A program made the translations under genes and the position numbers. A stretch of 64,000 bases of DNA from Gonapodya prolifera JEL478 (taxonomy: Eukaryota; Monoblepharomycota; Monoblepharidomycetes; Monoblepharidales; Gonapodyaceae), in NCBI GenBank assembly GCA_001574975.1, contig KQ965797.1, positions 1,270 through 65,269 on the forward strand. Reading direction: 5' to 3'. The notes beneath the pieces are model-generated. The model was given only the letters and a program-made list of their open reading frames with translations, was not told the DNA's origin and made no database searches. Below, one piece after another: positions 2,015-36,420 of the stretch (within the stretch, counting starts at the first letter, position 1; each line of letters opens with the position of its first letter).

Positions 2015-2204
2015 TCCCCGCACCAACCAACTCTCGCTCGCTGACCTCATCAGGCATCGTCGGCATTCCAAACACTTGGGACTAATCTCCGTGCGTGGTG
2101 GAGTCTGCGGGAGAGCTGCGTCCTCACACCACACAAGCCACATCTTCTTTGACAGGCTACCCACCCCTACCCTGATACTGATACCTCCATCACCCAGATC
2201 TGAC

Positions 2205-3329
2205 ATGTCGTCGCCCACCTCGTCACTTACCGACCCCCGCTTCACCTACCACCTTTCCAAATACTCCTGCATCGCAGATGTGTACTATATTCATGTCGCT
2301 TTCGCATATCTCGTCATGTTGGCGGGGTTCGGGTGCTTGTTCAGCAGGGTTATAAAACCAATCATGTGGATGCATGTGAGTCGTCCCGTTCCCGAGGCGA
2401 GATCGATCGTACTTGCAGGCTCTAAACGATTCTTATTCACAGGTATGGTTCGGGCGGTTCTACTGGATCTTCATGTACGTACCGCAACTCTTCCCCCGTA
2501 CTCAGTGAACTCACACACCACACCCACCGCCAGGCTCTGGACGACCGCCACCTCCCTCCTCATCCACAACACAGGCCTTCCCCTCGCCGTGCTGATCTCG
2601 TTCATCTTCGTCGGGTGCGGGATGACGTTCGGGTGGCTCGCGATCAACGTGCACCAGATCCAAATGACGCGCAATGCCACCGCGCACGTGCAGGACCAGA
2701 TCAAGGCCGAAGGCGCCGAGGTGATTGCGAAATTTGGCACGTTGGAGAGGATGATAATGGCGGAGAAGGGGAAGATTGCCATGGGGAAGAGCTTCCGTGA
2801 ACGTATCGTGTCGTTCAAGGCGCTCCATGGGGCACTCATGTAAGCGTCGCCTCATCTCGCTTGCTTGGCGCTTGGCGGCTGGCGCTTTCCACCGCCGACC
2901 CGTGTGTCAAACCCCATCCTCACCACAAACCTCGCTCTCACCACGCATAGGATAACCTCCTGGATCAACATCATCGGGCGCATCTTCGTCACACCCCTCG
3001 TCAACGACTTCTCATGCCACACTTACCCCTACTACAAACAAATCGACACCAAGCACTTTGCCGGCGCCAGCGCACCCTTGACGGCCGTTCCCGAACTGGA
3101 CCCCATGTACGCCCGCTTGCCCTGGTCCAAGACGGGCATGCCCGGGTGGGGCGCCGCGCTGTCGCTGGGCCCGTTCTTGGGAAGCTTTTTGGTCGGGGTT
3201 GTGTATGTCGTCGTGCAGCAGTACTTGGGCAACGTCCCCAAGGCGGGCTCGTCGCGTGCGGTCGCGCCTGTGGAGCCGAGGAGCTCGATTGCCAAGGAGA
3301 AGCTTCTTGAGGGTGCTGGGCAGACGTAG
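2205..3329 (+). CDS. Four-exon integral membrane protein, possibly DUF2306-like
   Basis: Joining 2205-2375, 2443-2474, 2534-2839 and 2951-3329 gives an uninterrupted 295-residue protein; every intron has GT and AG and the frame closes exactly. Residues about 26-50, 60-80 and 88-108 are hydrophobic segments. A charged loop of about 60 residues follows, then further hydrophobic stretches near 155-170 and 250-270. The His at the second exon junction followed by a GRFYW motif resembles DUF2306-type membrane proteins, but that is only a pattern match. The tail is polar with a basic end. The start is the first ATG in frame with segment 1. No neighbour suggests its role. Confidence 0.75.
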
Positions 3330-4538
3330 ATTGACCAGGGCGGGATGTGGGAGTGAGAAGTGGTGTTGATGTAGACGGCATGAGTAAAGTTACCCAAGAA
3401 CTACCCATACTTTCGCTCCATTCTTGTCCTAAACGGTTTTCCGAAGCATGGATGTAAAACATATTCCTCATTAATTGATACAAATGTAATCGATTGTCGA
3501 TGATTGAGTCTCAGTACACCAAAGAGTTCCGAATTTGCACACTAACACCCTCCTGCGTCGCCTCCGACCAACACCAAAGTGACATAAGTTCCTATGTACT
3601 ATTTTTTCAACGCGCCCACGGTCGGCGGGAATGGGATCAGAGTCTTGGAACCAACCATCACTCAACAACCAATGTTTGGTCACCTCAAACGTGGTAAAAC
3701 TATACCGGCACAGCGGATCAGACAACGCCCCGCTTGTACATTCGACATTCGTGCACCTCCCTATAACTTACGAATCAGTGAGCGAGCCGAAAAAACGTCA
3801 AATCATCCAGTCTCGGCTCACCTCCCCTTTTTTGTCGATACCCCGAATCTGAACCGCTGAACGCGGAAGCCGAAAGGTACCCGGAGTGGGCGGTACCAAG
3901 CCCGCCCCTCCGTTGATTATCAGGGCACGCCTGGCGTGAATCAGGGTGAATGTGAATCGGGACGAATGAGTAACATAACGAAAACTATCACCGCGGAGAC
4001 CCCGACCAAGTACTCATCTTTCTTCATGCTTCGTCGCGCAAATCCCTTGCCGCGACCCATGCGGCTTCTTCCATGCGGGGGACAGAGCCCCCCACACGGC
4101 CTCCATCGCAAGTGCGCTTACCCGCTCGCGAGGCTGGGATCACGACCTCTGATTCGCTGACCGCGCTCCGAGCAAAACCGTCCCCGTCGAATGGCGGGTA
4201 AGAGAATCGCCCCAGTCCTGCAGCGAAGAGCGGGACGAATCAATGGGTCTTGGGGGAAGGGAACGTTGGTTTGCGAAGACTTGGAACCCTGCACGACCAA
4301 AGTATTCTCTCGAACAATTAATTCTATTTCTGAAAAGGAAGAGGGGTGGGAAACCTCTTTGACTCGGTTGAGTAAAGTTGCAGCAGCTCCAGTTTTTGTT
4401 ATGCATCAAGTGTGGCAGGTAGCAGAACAACCCCCCCAAGAAGAAGATCCCAACCACATATAATGCATTAGAAACATTCACATTTATACTTCTATGCAAA
4501 TTCTATTCACGATGAGTCCGACGCACGACGTCGCCAAA
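3330..4538. other. Intergenic, nothing recognised
   Basis: About 1.2 kb between the membrane protein gene and the 3' end of the RasGAP-LIM gene. Short open frames exist on both strands but none shows a motif, intron signals joining it to another, or credible composition. It probably holds the two converging 3' untranslated regions. Confidence 0.5.
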
Positions 4539-7500
4539 TCAACACTTGCACGCCCTACACACCACCACCCCGGCCGCACCCTCCACATACTCCCCACCCA
4601 GGGCGTTCCTGCCACACGACGCGCACGTGAAGTGCTCCACGTGGTACACCCTTCCCTGTCCGGACACGACCATTCGGTCCAGGACCCCAGCCCCCTCCGA
4701 AGTTCCCCCGACGGGGAGTCCGCATCCGCGACACACGAGCATGTCCGCGCGGTGGGAGTTACAGAATAGTCCGACGCCTTCGAGGGTGAAGTACTGCCCG
4801 GCGAATAGGGTGGAGGCGCAGCGCTGGGTGGAGGAGGAAACATGTTGTAAGTCACAATGACGGCGATTTCGTGAAAGCGTCAAACACTCACGTCGCAAGT
4901 TTTGCACTTTGTGTGGAAGTACGCTCCATTGATATGGAAGTACTCTGTGCCGCCACCACGATCCCGCATTAAAACCCGTCTCTCCCCAACACCCCAACAC
5001 CCACCTCGCACTCACCAGTCTCAATCGGTCCTCGACATTGCTGGCACACAATCGCACCTGACAACCTATAGCACGTCTGACAGTACGCCCTTCCTCGTGC
5101 CGGGAAGAACCTCCCGCGGAGCTGCACGCTGCAGTCGGCGCAGGTGAAGCACGGTTGGTGGAACGTCTGCCCGAGGGCGTCGATCACGGGCCCCCCGAGG
5201 GGCTGGCCGCACTTGGCCCCGCATGTGGGTGGAGCATGCGGGGTGGGAGTGTGGGTGCGGCAGTAGAGTTTGTCAGTGGAGAGGGATGCGGTGGAGGATT
5301 TCATTCGGACTTGAGGAGTGATTGACGATGCGGGGAAGGAAGAGGGCGGGCGCGTGGATTGGGGCGGAGGTTGGTAGAGTTGAATACAGCGTTCGAGACA
5401 GAAGCGAAAGCGAAAACACACCTCCACAGGTCGAGCATACAAAGTGCTGGACAAGAAGCAATAAATTTCAGTGGTGCTCATTTGAGGAAATAACAACATC
5501 ATGCATACTTCGTATTGCCACTTTAAAACCACAAAATTGACCCACGCATTAGATATCGTTCGCGCCCGTTCTCTACCACAAAACACAAACGCTCACCTTC
5601 TTGCCCGAAAACTCCACTGCGAACCCGACAAGCGGCTTTTCGCAACACGCACACTGCCCTTGACCGTCGCCCATCCAGACCAGAACTTGCGGGGATGCGT
5701 AGCCTGCATCTATGGATGATTTGGTCGTCCGATGCTTACTTTCGGTGCTCGGGCCCTTGATTGCCGGTTGCATGGAGCCGCCAGCTCCCGCTTCAATAGT
5801 GTTTCGCTTCTTTGCTTCGCTGTCGGTCTTGCGATGCGATTGCGATTTCATTGAAGGGTCGCTGTGCTCCACAAAGGGCTCTCTTGCATCTTGCCGAGGT
5901 TGCGCTTGCCAGGATGCTATCGAATTGCCTTGCGATAGTGGTCGATTCGGCGGTGCGAGTTTCGTGTCGATTCGAAGTGGCGATGCGGGGCTTGGAGGAG
6001 AGTTTAAATGACCACGATGTGATTATTGATGGACACCGAAACTCACCGCTGAAACTTTTTCTCCAACGCGCTCGCTGCAATGGGAGCGATTTCGAGAGTC
6101 ACAGGTCGTGGTCGATCTACTACTTGATCTCCAGAATCACTTATGGAAAATGGGGACGATGTTTGGACAATCGCTTTCGGGATGGAGGCGCTCGTACGAG
6201 GGGCTGGAGAGCTTGATCGGGAACCCGGCTTTGTCCCATGAGAAGGTGGCGTTGGAAGCAAAGCGCTCGCCGCCGCCATGGGATCTACCAGATAGGACTT
6301 GAGGTCGCGCAAGAGCTCGCGATCGTCATCCTAGAAAGAAAGAATTTAAATTCCATCAAACAATACACCACAAACTTGAGACAAATCAACCTTACATTTT
6401 CGGCAGCTTTTTCTATTTTGCCTTGCACTTCCTCCAGTCGCGCAGCCAAAATGGCGAGGTCCTTCTCCGGGCGGTGGGATCGAGCACGGGAAAGGCTTGA
6501 AGCCGACATCTCCGTATCAGATATGGTGGCCTGTGGAATGCAAAAGTCTAAAAGACATGAAGCAAACAAGGTGTCATGGAGACGTACAGCGTGATCGAGA
6601 AACGACTTCATCCGGCCCAAGCGGTCATGAATATATGAATTCATCACTTCCATATAAGCCTCTTTCCCACCAAAATCCGAAAGGTTGGCAATGGTCTGGT
6701 TTGAAAACGCGGTTACATTGATGTCTTTGAAAAGGGATCGGGCAACAGAAAGCACACAACAAACCTGAAAAATTTTGGCGAGGAGGGTGAGAGTCCGCTT
6801 CGCACCCGGAGAAATCCGTACATCAGGTGGGATAAGACTGAACAGACGTGGACCAAGGATCGCGGGAACAAGGAGACCTGGAAGAGAAGGTTCGTAAGAA
6901 ACATCTTTGGCCCAGTCCGGCGAAGAAACTAAACTCACGCAAGAACAGAAACACGGATACAACGGAATACCGCGTGCTCTGGGCCCTTCTCAGTCCAGTT
7001 CCCTCTTTCGCTTCTGTCGGAGTCTGAAGCGTTGACGATGCATCGTCTTCTCCTTCCTCAAATCGTCGCCCAGCACCCCTTCGTAATTCTCGAAACACCC
7101 ATCGAACCTCCGCGGGCAAATGATCTCTAGCGGCAGCGACGCCATCAAGCAGTCGATCAGTGAGTGCCCCAAGGCGTGCGGCATGTGTTGCTGCCAGTGC
7201 AGGGTTCTCGAGATGCGCCGGATCGAGCTGCGACAGTTCACAAAGTCAAGCAACTTTGACCGTCGACAAATTCCTGAAACACCCACCTCCCATCCTTCTC
7301 CATCTTTTACTACAGTCCAAACGACCTGCCCTACACATCTCGCGCAGTATCCTTTGCAGACCATCTTGAGATAGGCATCCATACATTTCGTACCCACAGT
7401 GTTGGCCCGGAACAGTGTTCCGGCCGCTGTAGTACCTAAAGCCATCTCCTTCGCCAAAAGACTGTATACAAAGTGTGCTACCGGAGGTACCGACGAGTCA

Positions 7501-9912
7501 ACGATAGGTGACACGGGATTCGCATGCAGGTGGGACACATGCGACGGTGCAACCGAGTCCACACCGCGAACTAGTGCAAGTGCGATTTCGTCTGACGTTC
7601 CTGCGGTGCCAAGGAGGTGACACAGGCGGTGCGAGCGACGGGATAGAAGGGAAAGCAGAGGGGCGTGAGCCAGTGCTGGGAGGAGAGGAATTTTCTGAGA
7701 GAGCCGTTGGTGAGATACACAATTATGGAGACATCCAGTTGCCTCCACACTACTCACCCTGGCCCTCACCGCAATCCTCACCCACCCCACGCCTCCACAC
7801 TCTGAGCCTTCCACACACTTTCCGTGGTATATACCGTCGCACGCCGTACATTTGACGCCGCCGGCAACGACTCTTCCCCCGCAACTTCCACACTTGGTGA
7901 GCCATCCTCCGCCACCTATGCCCATGGGAATTGCATCATGTCGTAGCGGTAGTCGCATCGCCGGGGTCCGTCTTGCCGCGCCACCGCCTTCCTGCTTTCC
8001 AGAAACCGGGACCGGAAACTCTGCCGGTCTCGTCCTGTGTGGCCATTTTCTGAGCACTTCGACAAGCTGGCCCGCGTAATCAGGGCCTCCACCGGGTACG
8101 GGAGATACCGGCGACGGCATTGAGATGGGGGAGACTGGGGAAGGCTCTTCTTCTGGTCGGTCGTCATCAATATTGTTCGATGACCCTATTCTATGACGAC
8201 GGCGCTGAATTTTGGAGGAACGAGAGGAGGTGTGAAGAGGTGTGGGTGATGGAGGGATGGTAGAGTCAACTCCTGGGGGTAAGGAACACAATGGGTAAAA
8301 CCTGACCCGTCGTAAAGTTAAAAGCGCTGATTCAACTCGAACAATGTTTTGGCTCGCCTCACCGTTCACCGCCCCCTACAGTTCCAACAAGGTCCCGTAC
8401 CTCGACTGCACACATGCCCAAAAACGCCTGTCTCAACGTGCCTGGTTGAGGTGGCCGGCCATCCCACACAGACAGAAGAAGAATACGCGACACAGCAGGA
8501 GGAGGTACAGGACTATGAGAGAAGAAGTTCCCAGTCACATATGTATCTTTGATTTTGCGCTCGGGACATGCGCTGTCGCAGACTCACATGACAAACCCTT
8601 CAGCCCACTGGGGGCTCCCTCCTTGGCCTTCCTTGGTTCTCCATGTTGTCCCGTCCCTCCGTCCCGCTCTACCGTGTCCACCCTTTCCAAGATCGACGTC
8701 TGTGTCTGGGAGGATGGACACTGCAACGTAAGGTTTGGGATTATGGGCGGGGTGTGGTGACGCAAGGGATCGAGCTGACAAACACAAGAAATTGAGCAGG
8801 TAGTGATGAGAGATCGTGGAGGTGGACGAACCTTCATGAACATGGAGGGAGATGTGAGAAGGCTGAGACGTTTGAGCAGGAGAGGATGAAGAGTCCGTTG
8901 GGATGGAGTTTGGCGATGGATGGTGGGAGATGGCGAGGCGAAGGGAAGGGAGGCCTATGCAGACACAACACTTCATTACGTAGAATAATTAACGGGGTCG
9001 AAGATCGAATTCTCTCATTCGTCTGTCATCCGTGGCTTTTGCCTTCTTCGTCCCATGTCAACACACCTGCTGTGTCCCTCGCGCTGTCCTCAAGAGGCAT
9101 CATCACAACAATCTCCTCTTCTTTTGTCGGGCGAGGTGTGCCGGTGCCTGGTGACGGGGAGCCAGTGTTTGGTGATTTTGCAGTTGTGGGAGGTTCAGCG
9201 CGGAAGAGTGAGGCACATGGGAGAGTGGCACGACCGACGGCAACGGGGTTGGGGAAGTGAGACGCTATTGAGCTCGACTTAGGAGAGACTGCCAAAGAAG
9301 AATGGGATCGCGATGTTTTCTTGGGTTCTGGAGGTGCGGATGAGGATGGGGAAGGAGGGGGTTCGCGGAAGACGAGCGTCGATATGGTGGGATCTGGCAC
9401 ATCATCAAATGTGAAGTCTTCCGACTGAAGCAAGAAATTATTTGTTGGGGAATTCGCAGAGGACCACGATCAACGGAGTGTTGCCAATGGCGACAAAAAT
9501 TAGACTTCCCGTCAACCACAGCTCGACCAGTGACGACGGCTGAGAACGCACCCAGAAGACATTTCCTTGTTCGTCAGCTTCCGCTGAGGCGGATCTGTGT
9601 TCCACTGCAGACCCTCTCAGACGGATGACACAATAGTACGACTGTCGGGATTCTTGGGGAGGTCACGCGTTCGTGGTGATCCACGATGGACGGATGAAAT
9701 GAATCCCATGGAATAAGAGAGTTGACAAGGTTAGTTCTCCTCGCCTTATTTCCTCGCAAGTCCACGACCGGATTGGACACGGTCTTTCTCCACCCACCGG
9801 GGTCGTCCTCCTTTCGCCCCTTCCCACCACTCGAAGCCTCGGCTACGTGTCCTTCCATCGCCCGCACGCGCACATCCAGAGTCCATCGATCCCGTGAAGT
9901 ATCAGCCGCCAT
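4539..9912 (-). CDS. Ras GTPase-activating protein with C2, C1-like and four LIM domains
   Basis: Predicted Ras-GAP that speeds GTP hydrolysis by Ras at membranes. Reading 5' to 3' on the minus strand: a C2 domain (about 8880-8300, with NPKPYVAVS and a WAEGF motif), a C1-like zinc module (about 7930-7830, CGSC...CTAC...H..C), then a RasGAP domain (about 7700-6580). The RasGAP has FRANTVGTKCMDAYLK, LPAEVRWVFREL, FLRLLVPAILGP and NLSDFGGKEAYM, the family's core blocks, and a helix follows. Four LIM domains end the protein (about 5650-4540). LIM1 needs a 12-nt micro-exon at 5509-5520, coding WQYE, to bring its first CxxC and the His to normal spacing. Introns are short GT-AG; the C2, RasGAP and LIM exons join in frame. 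The exon order upstream of about 9450 is not resolved, so the 5' end (ATG at 9912) is provisional. Confidence 0.8.
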
Positions 9913-9961: not shown

Positions 9962-10002
9962 TCTGAGGATGGATCTGAGGATGGATCTGAGGATGGATCT
10001 GA
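9962..10002. repeat. 12-bp tandem repeat, 3.4 copies
   Basis: The unit TCTGAGGATGGA is repeated three times without change and starts a fourth time. It lies just upstream of the provisional start of the RasGAP-LIM gene, so in its 5' untranslated or promoter region. Such repeats often vary in length between strains. Confidence 0.85.
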
Positions 10003-10399
10003 CGGTATCGCAGCTTCACTATTGGGTCATGTGTCAAGGTATAATGAATTCATGTCAGGTGACAGGTTAGTTGTGTTATCTTCAATCGTTGACCGAAGTG
10101 TATCTTTGAAAGGATACACGACAGAATATGTGCAAATCATCGAATAAACCTGTGGAGTCTTCCGTACGCTCCTTTGGCTACGTATCCGGAGGATGCAACC
10201 GGGCTCCGAGTTCTGTGTAGGTTTGGGAGTCCGAAACGTATCGGGGTTCTGCAACGAGATATCTCCAAATGACTGTTCGCATTTCCTCTGAAATAATTCG
10301 TCACATCTCAAAAAGTCACATTTAATTCCGCACAGAAATCAATCTTTACAAATATGTGCAAAACGCTCGCGCTAGGCGCTCGCCGCTTCCGAATTCTCG

Positions 10400-30032: not shown

Positions 30033-33000
30033 ATGAGCCATCTACACCCCCCCAACGTCACTCTCACGCCCGCGTCGCCATCACAACCTTCTCGCCCCGG
30101 CACCCACTCGCACACTCCATCGAACTCCTCGTCTCGCTCGACTCACTCCTACTCTCATTCGCGCTCCGTCTCATCTGCGCGTGCACCGCCCCCTCTGAAC
30201 CCGTTCAGAAACGCATATGTGGGGAATGCGCCCAGGCCGTTGTATGTCGGACTCAAGGCCGATTCGACCGCGGCGACCAAGATTGCGGTGCGTATTGATG
30301 TGGTCTGGAAGTGAGAATTGTGCTGGGATGGCAGGAGCTGGGAAAACGGGGTTGGGGAAGTGAAGAAAATCAGGGTCTCGTTGTGGCTAGCGCGTTGGAG
30401 GACTGCAGTGGAACAGGTCAAAACGGAGGTGCTGGAAGAAGTGAATGGATGAAATTGAGGAGTGGAAACAACCAGAATCTGGATGAACTGTCACGGTCAT
30501 TTCGCAAGTTCTACTACCAGTGCAAAAGAAACTATGGCAATGGAAATGAACTGCGAAGGGAAATTTAATAGTACGACGGAAGGAGGTTTGGTGGATTCCG
30601 TGTGGAGGACGATGACGGGGGACCTATCTCAACACCTCGTGAATTAATTCACGGTATCTTGTGATGTCTTACTCCGCACGACCCAGTGCACATCATCCCT
30701 CCTATTCCTCCCGCTCTCCCTTCCCACCTCACTCGCGGTGTTTCCCCTTCCACCTGGCTCTGCATCATCCCTCACCTCACCTACGCTGCGCCCCGCTGCA
30801 GCCCCGCTGTCCCTGTCGCACCGAAAACCCGTCTCCGCCTTCGCAGTCGCCCCGTCCAGAGCGTCTGCGCCTGTTCTAGTCGCATCCACGGAGCGTACCG
30901 ACGCCGTCGTCAAAGTATGGTCACTGGACAGCGACAATGTCGAGCACGTCGAGCGTTTTAGCGGCGTTGCCGCGGGTAGCTCCGATGGCACTTCAGAAGA
31001 GACGAACCAGGAGCCGCGAGTCGTGGATGTGGCGCAGGGCTACCTGGCGGGACACGAACGGAGAGTGGATTGTATGGCATGGCATTCATTCGTGGAGGGT
31101 GTGTTGGCCACGGGTGGCGGGTGAGTACGACGAGAGAAGGACGTGATGTCAGGAAATGGGACCCATGGGTCCTCTACTAATCAGTCCACATGGCGCATTG
31201 GCCGCGAAATAGAGGCGTGTGGCAAATGCCAGGGACGGGACAAGTCGCATTCGAAGTTTTTTGAAGAAGAGTTCACATATCACGCTCCCGCGCTCCACAA
31301 ATAGTGACGGTACGATACGTATCTGGGACGCCCTTCAGATGCGAGAACTCCTCTGCCTCATGATCCCCTCCCAACCTTCCTTATCGGACCCTCCGTCGTC
31401 TATCCCGTCAGGCCCAACTCCTCCCGTCGACCCCGCACCAACCTGCCTCGCCTGGATGGATCGTGCAGGTGGTCGCGTTGGGTGGGACGTGGCGGCCGTG
31501 GGGGCTGACGGTGCTGTTAGGCTTTGGGATGTTCGGGAATGCGGGAAGCCGTGTGAAGTGCGTTGCGTGTACGCTGGTGTAGTCGCACCTCACCTGCACG
31601 ACATCTGCATCGCTAGCTTCTTTCTCCCTCGTCGTCACGTCCCTCCTCGATTACACCTCTTTCGCCCTCGCCATACCTGCTCATGTCCTATCCACCCCCA
31701 AACCGGCGCTTCATCCTTCTCGATACCCGTACGGGACTCTCGGTTGAGGGCTCTGCTCCCACCACTGTTTCTTCGACGGTGTTCTCCGCTCCCTTGCCGG
31801 ACGGCACGGCCCCGGTTGTTGCGAGCTGGGATCCGGGAAGGAGGGTCGCGTGGGCGTGGGGGAAGGGTGAGGCAGGTGTGGGAGTTTGGGCGATGGAAGA
31901 GGATGATTTAGATGGGGAGGACGCGCGCCGAGTGAGCTGGTCTCAAATTGGCTCAACAAAGTGCGACAGGGGTGCAGTGAGTGGGCCTCCTGGCTGCAAG
32001 TATGGTGTCCTCACTCCTCCTCTATCTAGACCGCATGGGCATCCATTCCATCTTTAGTATTCGACACCACTAAGTGGGAAGTGGCCAGATTCGCAAGAGT
32101 GCTGTGCGTACACGGGGTTGTGAGATTCATATGCTTGACACCAATTGTCTTCCGTTCCCGCCTTATCCATACCACAAAACCAATTTCAGAGCTGACTCTT
32201 CGATAGATTTGGTATCTCTCCACGTTACCCGTCGCGATCCACCCGGCGCCGCGTCGACCTCCCGAAGGCTCTCGACTGCCGTTGTCGGACCACCTCCCCA
32301 ATCGAATCTCGCTCCGTCGCTGGACCCACTTCTGTACCCCGCCGAGCTCCCCGAGGCCGTCCCATTGCTGGACGAGTGGCTTGCTACCCCCATCCCATCC
32401 CCCGCTCCCGCTCCCGCCAACTCGTCATTGCCATCACGTGCTTCGTCCCGATCTGGCCCTTCAATTCAGACGACACAGTCTCCTGCTGCAAGTCCCATGC
32501 TGATGCGATCCGCCACCTGGCGACCTGCCCCTCCCCCGAGACCAACATGGCCTCCGCCTGGGGTGAGCGAGCCGTGCTCGATCCGCAAGCACGTTGTCGC
32601 GACTGGGACTGGCTCGGGATCGACCAATGACTTGTCCTTCCCACGCGCCGTGGGAGACTGGGTTTCGGGCGAGGTCTGGGTGAGGAGAAGCCGTATTTGG
32701 TTTCTGAGTAGTTCGAGAGGTGGAGCGCTAGGTGTGGTCGGATGGACGTGGGTGGATGAGGTGACAGCAGTGGAGGTTGTTCCGCATGTCCCCGAGGGGC
32801 AGGGGCACCTTGCGACGGTGGAGACTTCCGGAGCTGTGTGGAGGCTGAGGTTTGGCGACTCACGTGGACGGGAGAGAGTCGTGAATGCCACCAAGAAGGC
32901 AATGGAGATGACGGGTGGAAGTCGCAATGTAGCACGAAGGGATGCACGTGGGCAGAGTAGCGCGTCGAGAGAGACGCTTTCTGGCTCGGAAGGGGCGCTG

Positions 33001-36000
33001 GTGCGCAAACCAACAGTTGTTCGTCAGAACGCAATGCTCATGTCACCGATGGAGTATCTCGGAACTCCTGAAGAAGGTGTCCCTTCTCAGTCCCGACCTC
33101 CGGCGCCAGGAGTGCAATGGCGCCCTCGCCTAGCCACGCTGGATTCAGATGGAGCGGTGCTCCTGCACTCGGCCAACATGCGGGCGTACCGACCTGACAA
33201 AGCCCCATTGGAATTGGTGAACTTGCGGTCGGCGGTAAGCTGCAGGCTCGCGGATCTGACTGCAGGAGGGGTGGGAGGTGAAGGTGGCGGTGGCGGAATG
33301 GACGTGTGGCAGATTACTCTTTCTTCTGGGCGTGTCGAGTTTTTCAGGGCCAAAAGCACGAGAGACGCAGCGGAGTGGGTGGTGGCCGTGCGTGAGGTGA
33401 TGGCTGACGTGAGAGATGGCATGGGTGAGGGCGAAGAATGCGAAGAAGGGGAGGTCGATGTGAAAGTGGAGCCGACCACAGAAGGGGCATCAAACAAAGT
33501 GCAGTTGCCGAATGGGCTTGGCGGAAAGAAATGGCTCGTCGCAGTTGAGGGCGCGCTCTTCTATTACAACAATTGCATGGACCGTGAGCCAGTTCACGTC
33601 TTTCAGTCAACCGACGTTTCCAGAGTGGAGGCGTGTGAAGATCCTGAGCTCGATGCAGTCGCCCTCGGTGGAAAGACCCCACCTCCACTTCCCTCCAACC
33701 GTCGGGTGATGTATGGATGGTTTCGTGTTCATATCGCTGGAGTGTCGCTCTTGCACCGAGTGAGCTCGAGTCGGGAGCGTGACAGATGGAGTCGAGAATG
33801 TTCTTTGCAACGACTGCGAGCATTTGACTTCTTCGCGAGGGTAGGCGTGAAGGACGAAGAGGATTTCTCACGCGTGGCCGAACGGGTTGGGAAGGCGGTT
33901 GTTGTTCATTCGGCGAGTACACCAGGTGCGACCAGTGAGGGACATGTGTTTGAGACTGATGGAGCGATGGCGGGGAGGAAGGAGGCACCCTTGATGGTTG
34001 TGATAAGGGGTGTGGTAAAACTTGTGAGTGCATTCCAAAAAAGTCTGGGTCATTCAACGCAGTCAGACGGGAAGGCCTTTGCAAGGTTATCGAACCAGTG
34101 CCCCTCCACAATACATACCTTCGTACCGACCTCTGCGCTGTACTGGATCGTGGAGATGTCATATACCGATGGGCAGGACCCGACTCTTCTCGAGTCTGCC
34201 GCGGTCAGGCTATGGACTGGGCAACGAGAATACGTAAAGAGCGACAAAACAGGCCTAGGATCTGTGTTGTTGACGAGCGGGACGCTGGACACGCTGAGTT
34301 CTGGAAGATAATTGGTGGAGAAAGACCGGACTTGCTGAAACCAGTTGACTGGGAGGGTGCAAGTGCGAGTAATCCGACACTCGACCGCTCTATCAGGGTC
34401 ATGACACCTAACGTCATACGAGTTTTCGAAATTAAATTCTGTAGAGCTTTTTCGAAGCGGGTGGAGCTCATGTATGAAGGATTTTCTCCCTCGAAAGGAC
34501 TGCTCAAGTCTGGCTCATGTTGTTTGGTCGTGGTGGGGTCCAGAGAGGTTCATTTATGGATTGGAAAAGGATCGCTGTTGGATCTACGAGACTTCTCGCT
34601 GACGGTGTGGCGATCAATCGCCGTTCGAGTCGCGGAGATTCAAGTCGGTGAAAGAAACTCGCAGCCTGACAATAGGATTCTCGGGTTTGTTGTCGCAATG
34701 AAATGCAACGAGGCGCAAGAAACGGTGCTCTTCAAGGTGACTGTCACCTCAAGTCCCGCATGTTTGAATCACATGCAAGCTAAAGGGTTTTACGCAGGAC
34801 AAATTTGTCGATTACGAAGGCTCTCTCCCAATATCAATGAGGCCAGCTGAAGAAGGACCCGCAAGAATCGCACGAACGCAACCTCAATCGGACATCGACA
34901 CATCCATTTTCACATCCTCTCAAGTTAAACCTTTACAACCCATCTTGGACGACGATGGCCGCTCAGGCACTTTGTCTGTTTACATCGTTAATGAATTCGG
35001 CAGGATTGCTGTGCCCAGCGATCGGCACAACCGCTTGTTTGAATGTGACTCCTACGTTATTCTATATCGATATTCCCCATCTTCCGGTGGTGCTCGTATC
35101 GAAAAGCGTATCGCTTATTTTTGGCAAGGACGTGACAGTCCCATCACTCAAAAGGGAACTTCGGCTCTCTTGACCGTCGACATAAGCAAGGAAACTGGTG
35201 GAGAGCTCACACAAGTGCGAGTTGCGCAAGGAAAAGAGCCTGTGCATTTTGTTGAGATCATGGGCGGTGTCGTGGTTATCAGATGTGGGAAGGACCCGCT
35301 GACGAGTAAAGAAACGCATGGCGGACAAGACAAAGGGACATTTACAACTTTCGATGTTCGAGTTTCGGAAAGTGGTGGTATACTGGCGTGCGAGTGTCGG
35401 TCTGGTGACGACGTGCAGCTGTACCCTTTCGGATCTGTGATCGCTTTCCCTCCGAAGGAGACACCCATTATCTATCACGGCGCATGGGTAGCCGAACCAT
35501 CGAGGAAGGGAGTGGAAGCCAAGTCTCTTTTCAAAAGTTTGGGAACATTGCAAACCAATGGCCCTCGCATACTCACTCACACCGAAGAAGCGCATGAAGT
35601 TTTGAAGCGGGCGGGATGGAAAGCATCAGAGTGGCATCGCGTTGTGGAGAAGATACCCTCTTCTGCGTCGCCACGAGTGTTTTCGTTCGCGATGGGTGTT
35701 GGAAACGTTGTGGTGAGAGGCAACCGGTCGCCGAACTGCTCCTCTCTCGACTTAACACAACTCACGGTGATTTTCAAGGGTGAAGAGATATTTGATGTGA
35801 CGCAAGAAGACCTTTCAGACCTGCCCGTTGTCGTGTGCGACAATGGTGATGAGATATATGTTCGCTTCTGCAATGCTAAACCACAAGAGAAAACTGTAGC
35901 GCTTCGTACCGTTTTGGTGAGTAAGCGTTCTTCATCAAGGTCATGTTGGATGTTAACAAGCACCATTCAGAAATATGTTGAAACGGCCAAGCGGTCGTCT

Positions 36001-36420
36001 TCGGTGTGGGTCGTTGCCGCGGGCCATGAAACCCCCGCATTCACTTGCCGGTTTCAGGGGTGGCGTCGAGACTCGAAGGATTCCTCGGAGCTCTTCAAAC
36101 GGACTTCAGCCCAATGTGTGCTTGATGAGTGAGTGTCAGCAAACCTTCCTCAAGTGCATCTATCCCAAGATAAATAATCTTTGTCTTACAGCCTCTCCAA
36201 GAAAACGTTTTCTCTCGCAGAGGTTCTTGCCTTCGCGTCCACACTCCAAACAGGCGGCGCACAAGCTTTGTCGGAGCGCCACCATATTGACGTCTCGAAA
36301 CTCGAGGACCTTCTCGCTGAAGATGACTTCCCGAAGTTGTTTAAAATGCCTCGAGACAAGTTCGACGCCATGCCCGAGTGGAAGAGACTGCGATTGAAGC
36401 AGGACGTCGGATTGTACTGA
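30033..36420 (+). CDS. Villidin-like protein: coronin WD domain, PH domains, gelsolin repeats, villin headpiece
   Basis: A large actin regulator. The N-terminal ~100 residues hold a basic Ser-rich patch and NPFRNAYVG. A coronin-type WD region follows (30687 to ~32400: TDAVVKVWSL, DGTIRIWDAL, AVRLWDVRE, EVARF, DPLLYPAE). PH-like domains lie at about 32600-32900, 33180-33420 and 33500-33820. Gelsolin-type segments span 34060-36120 (DVIYRWAG, YVILYRY, IAYFWQG, QVRVAQGKEPVHF). A villin headpiece is coded by 36192-36420 (VSKLEDLLAEDDFPKLFKM, then LPLWK-like MPEWKRLRLKQDVGLY). Exon ends read with confidence: 30287, 30687-31120, 31305-31557, 31617-31931, then up to 34009, 34798-35916, 35971-36128. 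The joins at 31932-32200 are uncertain. The order matches villidin of Dictyostelium. Confidence 0.85.

Follow-up and report, generated by a model that had tools for sequence, protein, structure and literature searches.

A candidate RasGAP gene with four C-terminal LIM domains in Gonapodya prolifera

Can one fungal gene combine a RasGAP catalytic domain with an array of LIM domains, and if so, what might such a protein do? This question is raised by a locus on the minus strand of contig KQ965797.1 of Gonapodya prolifera JEL478, which lies at positions 4539-9912 of a window of 64,000 nucleotides (the window being the whole stretch of DNA that was analyzed; positions refer to it, and features to its minus strand, unless stated otherwise). 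The reading that we favor, and consider reasonably probable, is that the locus is one gene whose product is a catalytically competent Ras-family GTPase-activating protein (GAP), which would be held at the membrane by a C2 domain and at actin or adhesion complexes by its LIM domains, and would switch off Ras locally. The elements of this reading that were observed are the presence of all of these domains in one modelled frame, the conservation of the catalytic motifs, and the occurrence of talin and vinculin-family genes in the same genome. Several published articles are cited below by their PMC identifiers, and statements that rest on them cover only the excerpts used here.

Domain content and gene model

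The predicted coding span runs from an ATG at 9912 to a stop codon ending at 4539. In our splicing model, it comprises 19 exons joined via 18 introns (56-145 nucleotides, all GT-AG) into one open frame of 1325 codons plus the stop codon, with no internal stops. These are exactly the coordinates at which the first-pass annotation had placed a RasGAP-LIM gene, and the modelled protein of 1325 residues agrees with that placement. A Pfam scan (E up to 1), which covered 1283 residues of the spliced protein starting with SYYC of exon 2 (the first 42 being omitted), returned three families, namely LIM (7.9e-30, 103.3 bits, four stretches), RasGAP (PF00616; 4.9e-22, 79.3 bits versus a gathering score of 28.3), and C2 (2.4e-9). 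All three exceed their curated cut-offs and are therefore not chance matches, and they were also recovered from separate pieces of the protein (LIM 3.6e-34, RasGAP 6.6e-24, C2 5.1e-9). No match was obtained in the scan of the spliced protein for RhoGAP, RasGAP_C (RGCt, PF03836), PH, SH2, or SH3. Membership in the LIM-RhoGAP group (Lrg1/Rga1) was ruled out by the lack of a RhoGAP match, and membership in the IQGAP/fungal GAP1 group by the lack of RasGAP_C after the RasGAP domain at the same threshold. The catalytic domain is of the RasGAP and not the RhoGAP type, as had been proposed, and the three sequence blocks originally quoted for it all fall within the alignment with p120GAP.

The RasGAP domain (residues 554-832; 6588-7613) has its best matches in PDB to p120GAP/RASA1 (1.1e-24), SynGAP (1.9e-19, in the fourth row), and neurofibromin (5.3e-10). 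Its alignment with p120GAP retains the arginine finger, the FLR motif, and the stretch AK..Q..AN...FG.KE.YME. The arginine finger is R622 in FRANTVG (7407-7409), which aligns to FRATTLAS of p120GAP, and the FLRLLVPAILGP motif (residues 757-768; 6849-6945, split by intron 9 at 6938-6878) fits FLRxxxPAxxxP, the RasGAP motif given in the excerpt of PMC12871552. Because both the arginine finger and FLRxxxPAxxxP are kept, the protein is probably an active GAP. At the FLR-motif site, an IQGAP-like gene on contig C26 of the same genome (so called from a RasGAP_C match and from its open reading frames by eye) reads YYRYMNPAI, a form tied to activity loss in the same excerpt (PMC12871552). On this comparison, the RasGAP domain studied here looks active, whereas that of the IQGAP-like gene looks inactive.

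Upstream of the RasGAP domain, one C2 domain (PF00168; residues 226-336; 8389-8853) is certain. A second, N-terminal C2 domain (residues 9-94; 9359-9888) is only suggestive: its Pfam E value of 0.15 is below the cut-off and ranks behind that of the unrelated Pyocin_S (0.024, also below the cut-off), and the region spans the uncertain intron 1. Between the C2 and RasGAP domains, a putative zinc finger (residues 466-513; 7797-7940) was recognized from its ligand pattern, H-x15-C-x2-C-x10-C-x2-C-x4-H-x2-C-x5-C, which offers eight possible zinc ligands in the C1 order with odd spacing. On this piece, C1_1 (PF00130) reached 7.8e-4 and 19.7 bits versus a cut-off of 26.5, with PHD (0.074) and LIM (0.1) as additional weak matches. 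Its best PDB match was a PHD finger (0.0022), followed by weak matches to LIM domains and to the C1 domain of protein kinase C, and an AlphaFold2 single-sequence model (predicted local distance difference test score, 41.6) was uninformative and not used. Of the two modules initially placed ahead of the RasGAP domain, the C2 domain is thus well supported, while the C1-like one is weak; the finger may be an atypical C1-like module. Lipid binding by it is unlikely because its loop is shortened compared to what we take to be the usual C1 spacing.

Seventeen of the introns were set by eye according to frame and domain continuity, with their positions verified by a script, and intron 1 (9797-9653) was picked by enumerating in-frame GT-AG pairs, with preference for the highest-ranking donor and for the AG that comes first after a CTAAC. 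Six introns were scored by a weight matrix built from the other 17 introns (leave-one-out), with 330 unused GTs and 271 unused AGs of the gene as decoys. The weakest sites in these six were the donor of a 12-nucleotide exon inside LIM1 (5520-5509; equalled by 153 of the 330 decoys), the acceptor of intron 16 (67 of 271 decoys as good), and the acceptor of intron 1 (44/271 equal or better), and exon 1 together with intron 1 is the least certain part of the model. The 12-nucleotide exon was kept because the residues that it contributes, WQYE in GKKWQYEHFVC (aligned with GKQWHVEHFVC of PINCH), restore the LIM pattern. Its replacement by one 150-nucleotide intron through LIM1 is less probable, the result being less LIM-like. 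An Rfam scan of the window gave no match. Separately, a short repeat similar to CAGATCCATCCT, with roughly three units in tandem, was noticed by eye at approximately 9965-10005, just upstream of the start codon.

The LIM array and related architectures

The four LIM domains are separated by spacers of 9, 8, and 6 residues. LIM1 (residues 1085-1135; 5251-5653) is matched by Pfam, contains the 12-nucleotide exon, and aligns to PINCH; LIM2 (residues 1145-1195; 5071-5223) is a single-exon Pfam match (4.6e-11) whose first pair reads C-x3-C; LIM3 (residues 1204-1255; 4752-5046) is found by both Pfam and the LIM pattern; and LIM4 (residues 1262-1323; 4548-4733) is again a single-exon Pfam match (2.1e-8). 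The proposal of four LIM domains on the C-terminal side of the RasGAP domain is therefore upheld by the four Pfam stretches. Their nearest LIM domains in PDB are those of PINCH (3.1e-13) and paxillin (9.2e-11). Paxillin/Pxl1 and PINCH have a tandem LIM array as here and, to our knowledge, no catalytic domain; genes that look paxillin-like by eye are separate in this genome (contigs C33 and C137).

An aromatic residue at what we take to be the stress-linked position of the LIM domain is present in three of the four LIM domains (in LIM2 it was seen by eye and missed by the pattern). The baseline from the same genome is three of six LIM domains caught by the pattern, which come from three of eight other LIM loci, the two paxillin-like genes being among the loci that the pattern did not catch. 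This feature does not discriminate actin-binding LIM domains here. In the excerpt of PMC12157626, LIM domains that bind stressed actin are described as occurring three or more in tandem, with fixed short linkers and conserved aromatic residues.

The strongest alternative accepts one protein and assigns the LIM array to a signaling or scaffold partner, such as a kinase, a polarity protein, or a septum protein, instead of actin or adhesion complexes. LIM domains in general have many binding partners, and the aromatic counts given above (3/4 here versus 3/6 elsewhere) are equally compatible with it. Moreover, Lrg1 and Rga1 of Magnaporthe sit at septal pores according to the excerpt of PMC3914944. 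However, the nearest solved LIM domains are those of PINCH and paxillin, and four tandem domains with such short spacers resemble adhesion-type arrays; we thus give this alternative some credence and regard it as rather unlikely.

With regard to known GAPs, p120GAP/RASA1 and SynGAP share with this gene a RasGAP domain with an arginine finger and an FLR motif, preceded by a C2 domain; PH, SH2, and SH3 domains were not matched here in the Pfam scan. Bud2/CLA2, the GAP for Bud1/Rsr1, is also of the fungal RasGAP class and has the C2-RasGAP order. We know of no LIM array in the former two proteins and of no LIM domain in the latter. Lrg1 and Rga1 are similar in that LIM domains involved in localization are placed on a small-GTPase GAP, but they are RhoGAPs and their LIM domains are N-terminal (PMC3914944, excerpt). 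The contrast with fungal N-terminal LIM-RhoGAPs that had been drawn at the outset agrees with this description, and the same order of matches is seen in the present genome at 102200-105807 of contig C11, where LIM matches come first and RhoGAP matches lie about 2.3 kb further along that strand (a candidate LIM-RhoGAP gene). In Neurospora Lrg1, the LIM domains and not the RhoGAP domain are reported in that excerpt as crucial to localization (PMC3914944). The GAP1-type protein IqgC of Dictyostelium is a RasGAP that acts at actin cups and adhesion sites, but reaches adhesion foci via RGCt, not LIM (PMC12871552, excerpt), whereas our protein has no RasGAP_C match. The partner domains listed as usual for RasGAP in the same excerpt are C2, PH, CH, and Sec14-like (PMC12871552). 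No fungal RasGAP-LIM fusion was described in the open-licence literature, among the matches listed (titles and abstract starts). Judged by that literature, RasGAP domains and LIM arrays are each familiar, and their fusion is a combination that was not found among these matches.

The RasGAP-LIM junction and the case against one active protein

The linker between the RasGAP and LIM domains (residues 833-1073; 5687-6530) is an open frame over exons 12-14, with a coiled-coil-like start (by eye) followed by low complexity. Intron 13 (5991-6046) lies at this junction and decides between one gene and two: if retained, it gives a TGA at 6045-6043. In the first-pass annotation, a stop between the two halves (about 5650-6300) had been named as the mark of two separate genes. 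Such a stop is present in the unspliced sequence, but it sits within the donor of intron 13, GTGAGT, which was equalled or beaten by none of the 330 decoy GTs (for the acceptor, 9 of the 271 decoy AGs scored as high or higher). Because this TGA lies in a donor that outscores all unused GTs, a single transcript across the RasGAP and LIM parts is likely under the splicing model. Even when unspliced, two stretches are free of stops: one at 6990-8375, in which the C1-like finger and the arginine-finger portion of the RasGAP domain lie, and one at 6285-6989, in which the last RasGAP part is continuous with the coiled-coil-like region; the joins within the RasGAP domain (introns 8 and 9) depend on the splicing model and the p120GAP alignment.

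Codon preference of the linker was scored with two training sets (57 and 21 stretches), and with the former 60 intergenic pieces served as the control (best of three frames, averaged). With the 21-stretch set, exons 13 and 14 score -0.015 and 0.018 in frame, which is above the other forward frames and near zero, and one reverse frame of exon 13 reaches 0.009 versus -0.015 in frame. Several exons outside the linker are also near or below zero (for instance, -0.194 for exon 4 with the same set). Codon preference does not discriminate a coding linker.

Several observations weigh against a single, active, LIM-tethered protein. The segment at 5989-5852, which precedes the first in-frame ATG of exon 14, scores -0.086 in frame, with two of the three reverse frames higher (-0.044 and 0.021) and the forward alternatives lower (-0.108 and -0.112), and with the 57-stretch set the values of linker exons 13 and 14 (0.062 and 0.040) overlap the intergenic control (mean 0.036, highest 0.167). 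LIM1 is without one usual zinc ligand, having Q at the third-ligand position. In the alignment with p120GAP, S occupies the position of the residue that we take to be R894, and G replaces N in the stretch PAIL(N/G)PR. Searches for relatives with the same domain order confirmed none of 54 pattern stretches in prokaryote genome contigs and none of 12 in viral contigs, which is no evidence of rarity because neither collection was meant to hold fungi. Finally, the localization of Magnaporthe Lrg1 is affected by both LIM2 and RhoGAP in the excerpt of PMC3914944, so LIM domains need not be the sole tether.

The indecisive coding signal of 5989-5852, the unspliced RasGAP-side frame that stops at 6043, and the in-frame ATGs at 5851, 5773, and 5674 would suit two adjacent genes, namely a C2-C1-RasGAP gene ending at the TGA and a separate four-LIM gene starting at one of these ATGs. 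Nevertheless, such an arrangement is improbable: the TGA falls within a donor that no decoy matches, a fair acceptor lies 56 nucleotides further, the reading frame is preserved across intron 13, and merely about 190 nucleotides separate the stop (6043) from the first in-frame ATG that follows (5851). That the RasGAP fold is an IQGAP-like pseudo-GAP scaffold, as the S and G substitutions might suggest, is similarly improbable, the arginine finger and FLRxxxPAxxxP, which are the features that IQGAPs lost, being retained.

Genome setting and proposed role

The genome searched (47.6 Mb, 207 contigs) contains matches to radial spoke protein 3 (8.5e-49), the talin middle domain (3.1e-31, contig C74), and the vinculin family (contigs C24 and C49, the match on C49 covering the C-terminal part only), as well as 63 Zn-cluster and nine chitin synthase matches. 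Considering which lineages are generally known to carry cilia, adhesion, Zn-cluster, and chitin markers, this set fits a zoosporic, early-diverging fungus, the kind of host that had been presumed. Focal-adhesion scaffolds (talin, vinculin, and others) occur in basal fungi and not in Dikarya according to the excerpt of PMC5042518.

Four RasGAP matches were found at three places (contigs C7 and C26 and the present gene) by an exon-wise search that could miss others. Among them, the closest paralogue outside the locus is on C7 (39% over 86 residues), and none is close. The C7 locus (L005, about 2174-6209, plus strand) shows a row of FCH/F-BAR (8.1e-10), PH (0.0027, below the cut-off), C2 (1.9e-12), and RasGAP (1e-23) matches and is a second unusual RasGAP, its matches being read as separate pieces and not as one spliced model. 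RasGAP_C was matched on C26 only (three matches), and PH_NF1 had no match in the genome, a result that does not show absence. LIM matches were found on eight other contigs (C2, C3, C8, C11, C12, C13, C33, and C137). C33 (L007) and C137 (L008) are near-duplicate segments, each with a gene that looks thiolase-like by eye beside the paxillin-like multi-LIM gene, and C43 and C68 likewise carry RhoGAP matches that look alike and score identically; both pairs may represent either segmental duplication or separated haplotypes. In the window itself, adjoining open reading frames at 32074-36132 on the plus strand match PH (1.4e-5), gelsolin repeats (1.9e-9 and 8.6e-7), and DUF7904 (9.2e-12), and could encode a gelsolin-type actin regulator.

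Under the favored reading of one RasGAP-LIM protein, the C2 region would bring the protein to the membrane, where the RasGAP domain would inactivate a GTPase of the Ras family, either Ras itself or one of the Rap/Rsr1 type. The C1-like finger would probably be a structural or regulatory module and not a lipid sensor, while the four C-terminal LIM domains may dock the protein on actin or adhesion-type complexes. Inactivation of Ras would then be confined to places at which the cortex is anchored or bears load. The single transcript, the GAP activity, its substrate, the LIM partner, and the local switch-off are parts of this scheme that we infer. Precedents for targeting of GAPs by LIM or other domains are Lrg1 of Neurospora and Magnaporthe and IqgC of Dictyostelium, as far as the excerpts of PMC3914944 and PMC12871552 describe them. 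A bolder version, which is speculative and on balance doubtful, is a force-gated off-switch for Ras: the LIM domains would bind strained actin or talin/vinculin sites and bring the RasGAP domain to the loaded cortex, so that load would lead to Ras inactivation within one polypeptide of a swimming-then-walled fungus, perhaps as an old early-fungal fusion that was lost in Dikarya.

The fungal LIM-GAPs described in the excerpt of PMC3914944 are RhoGAPs, and a RasGAP placed by LIM domains would depart from the usual neighbors of this domain. If the favored reading is true, such a protein would couple the shutdown of Ras to the focal-adhesion-type components of basal fungi, such as talin and vinculin, and would offer a single gene for probing how chytrid-like cells link Ras to the cortex or to attachment.

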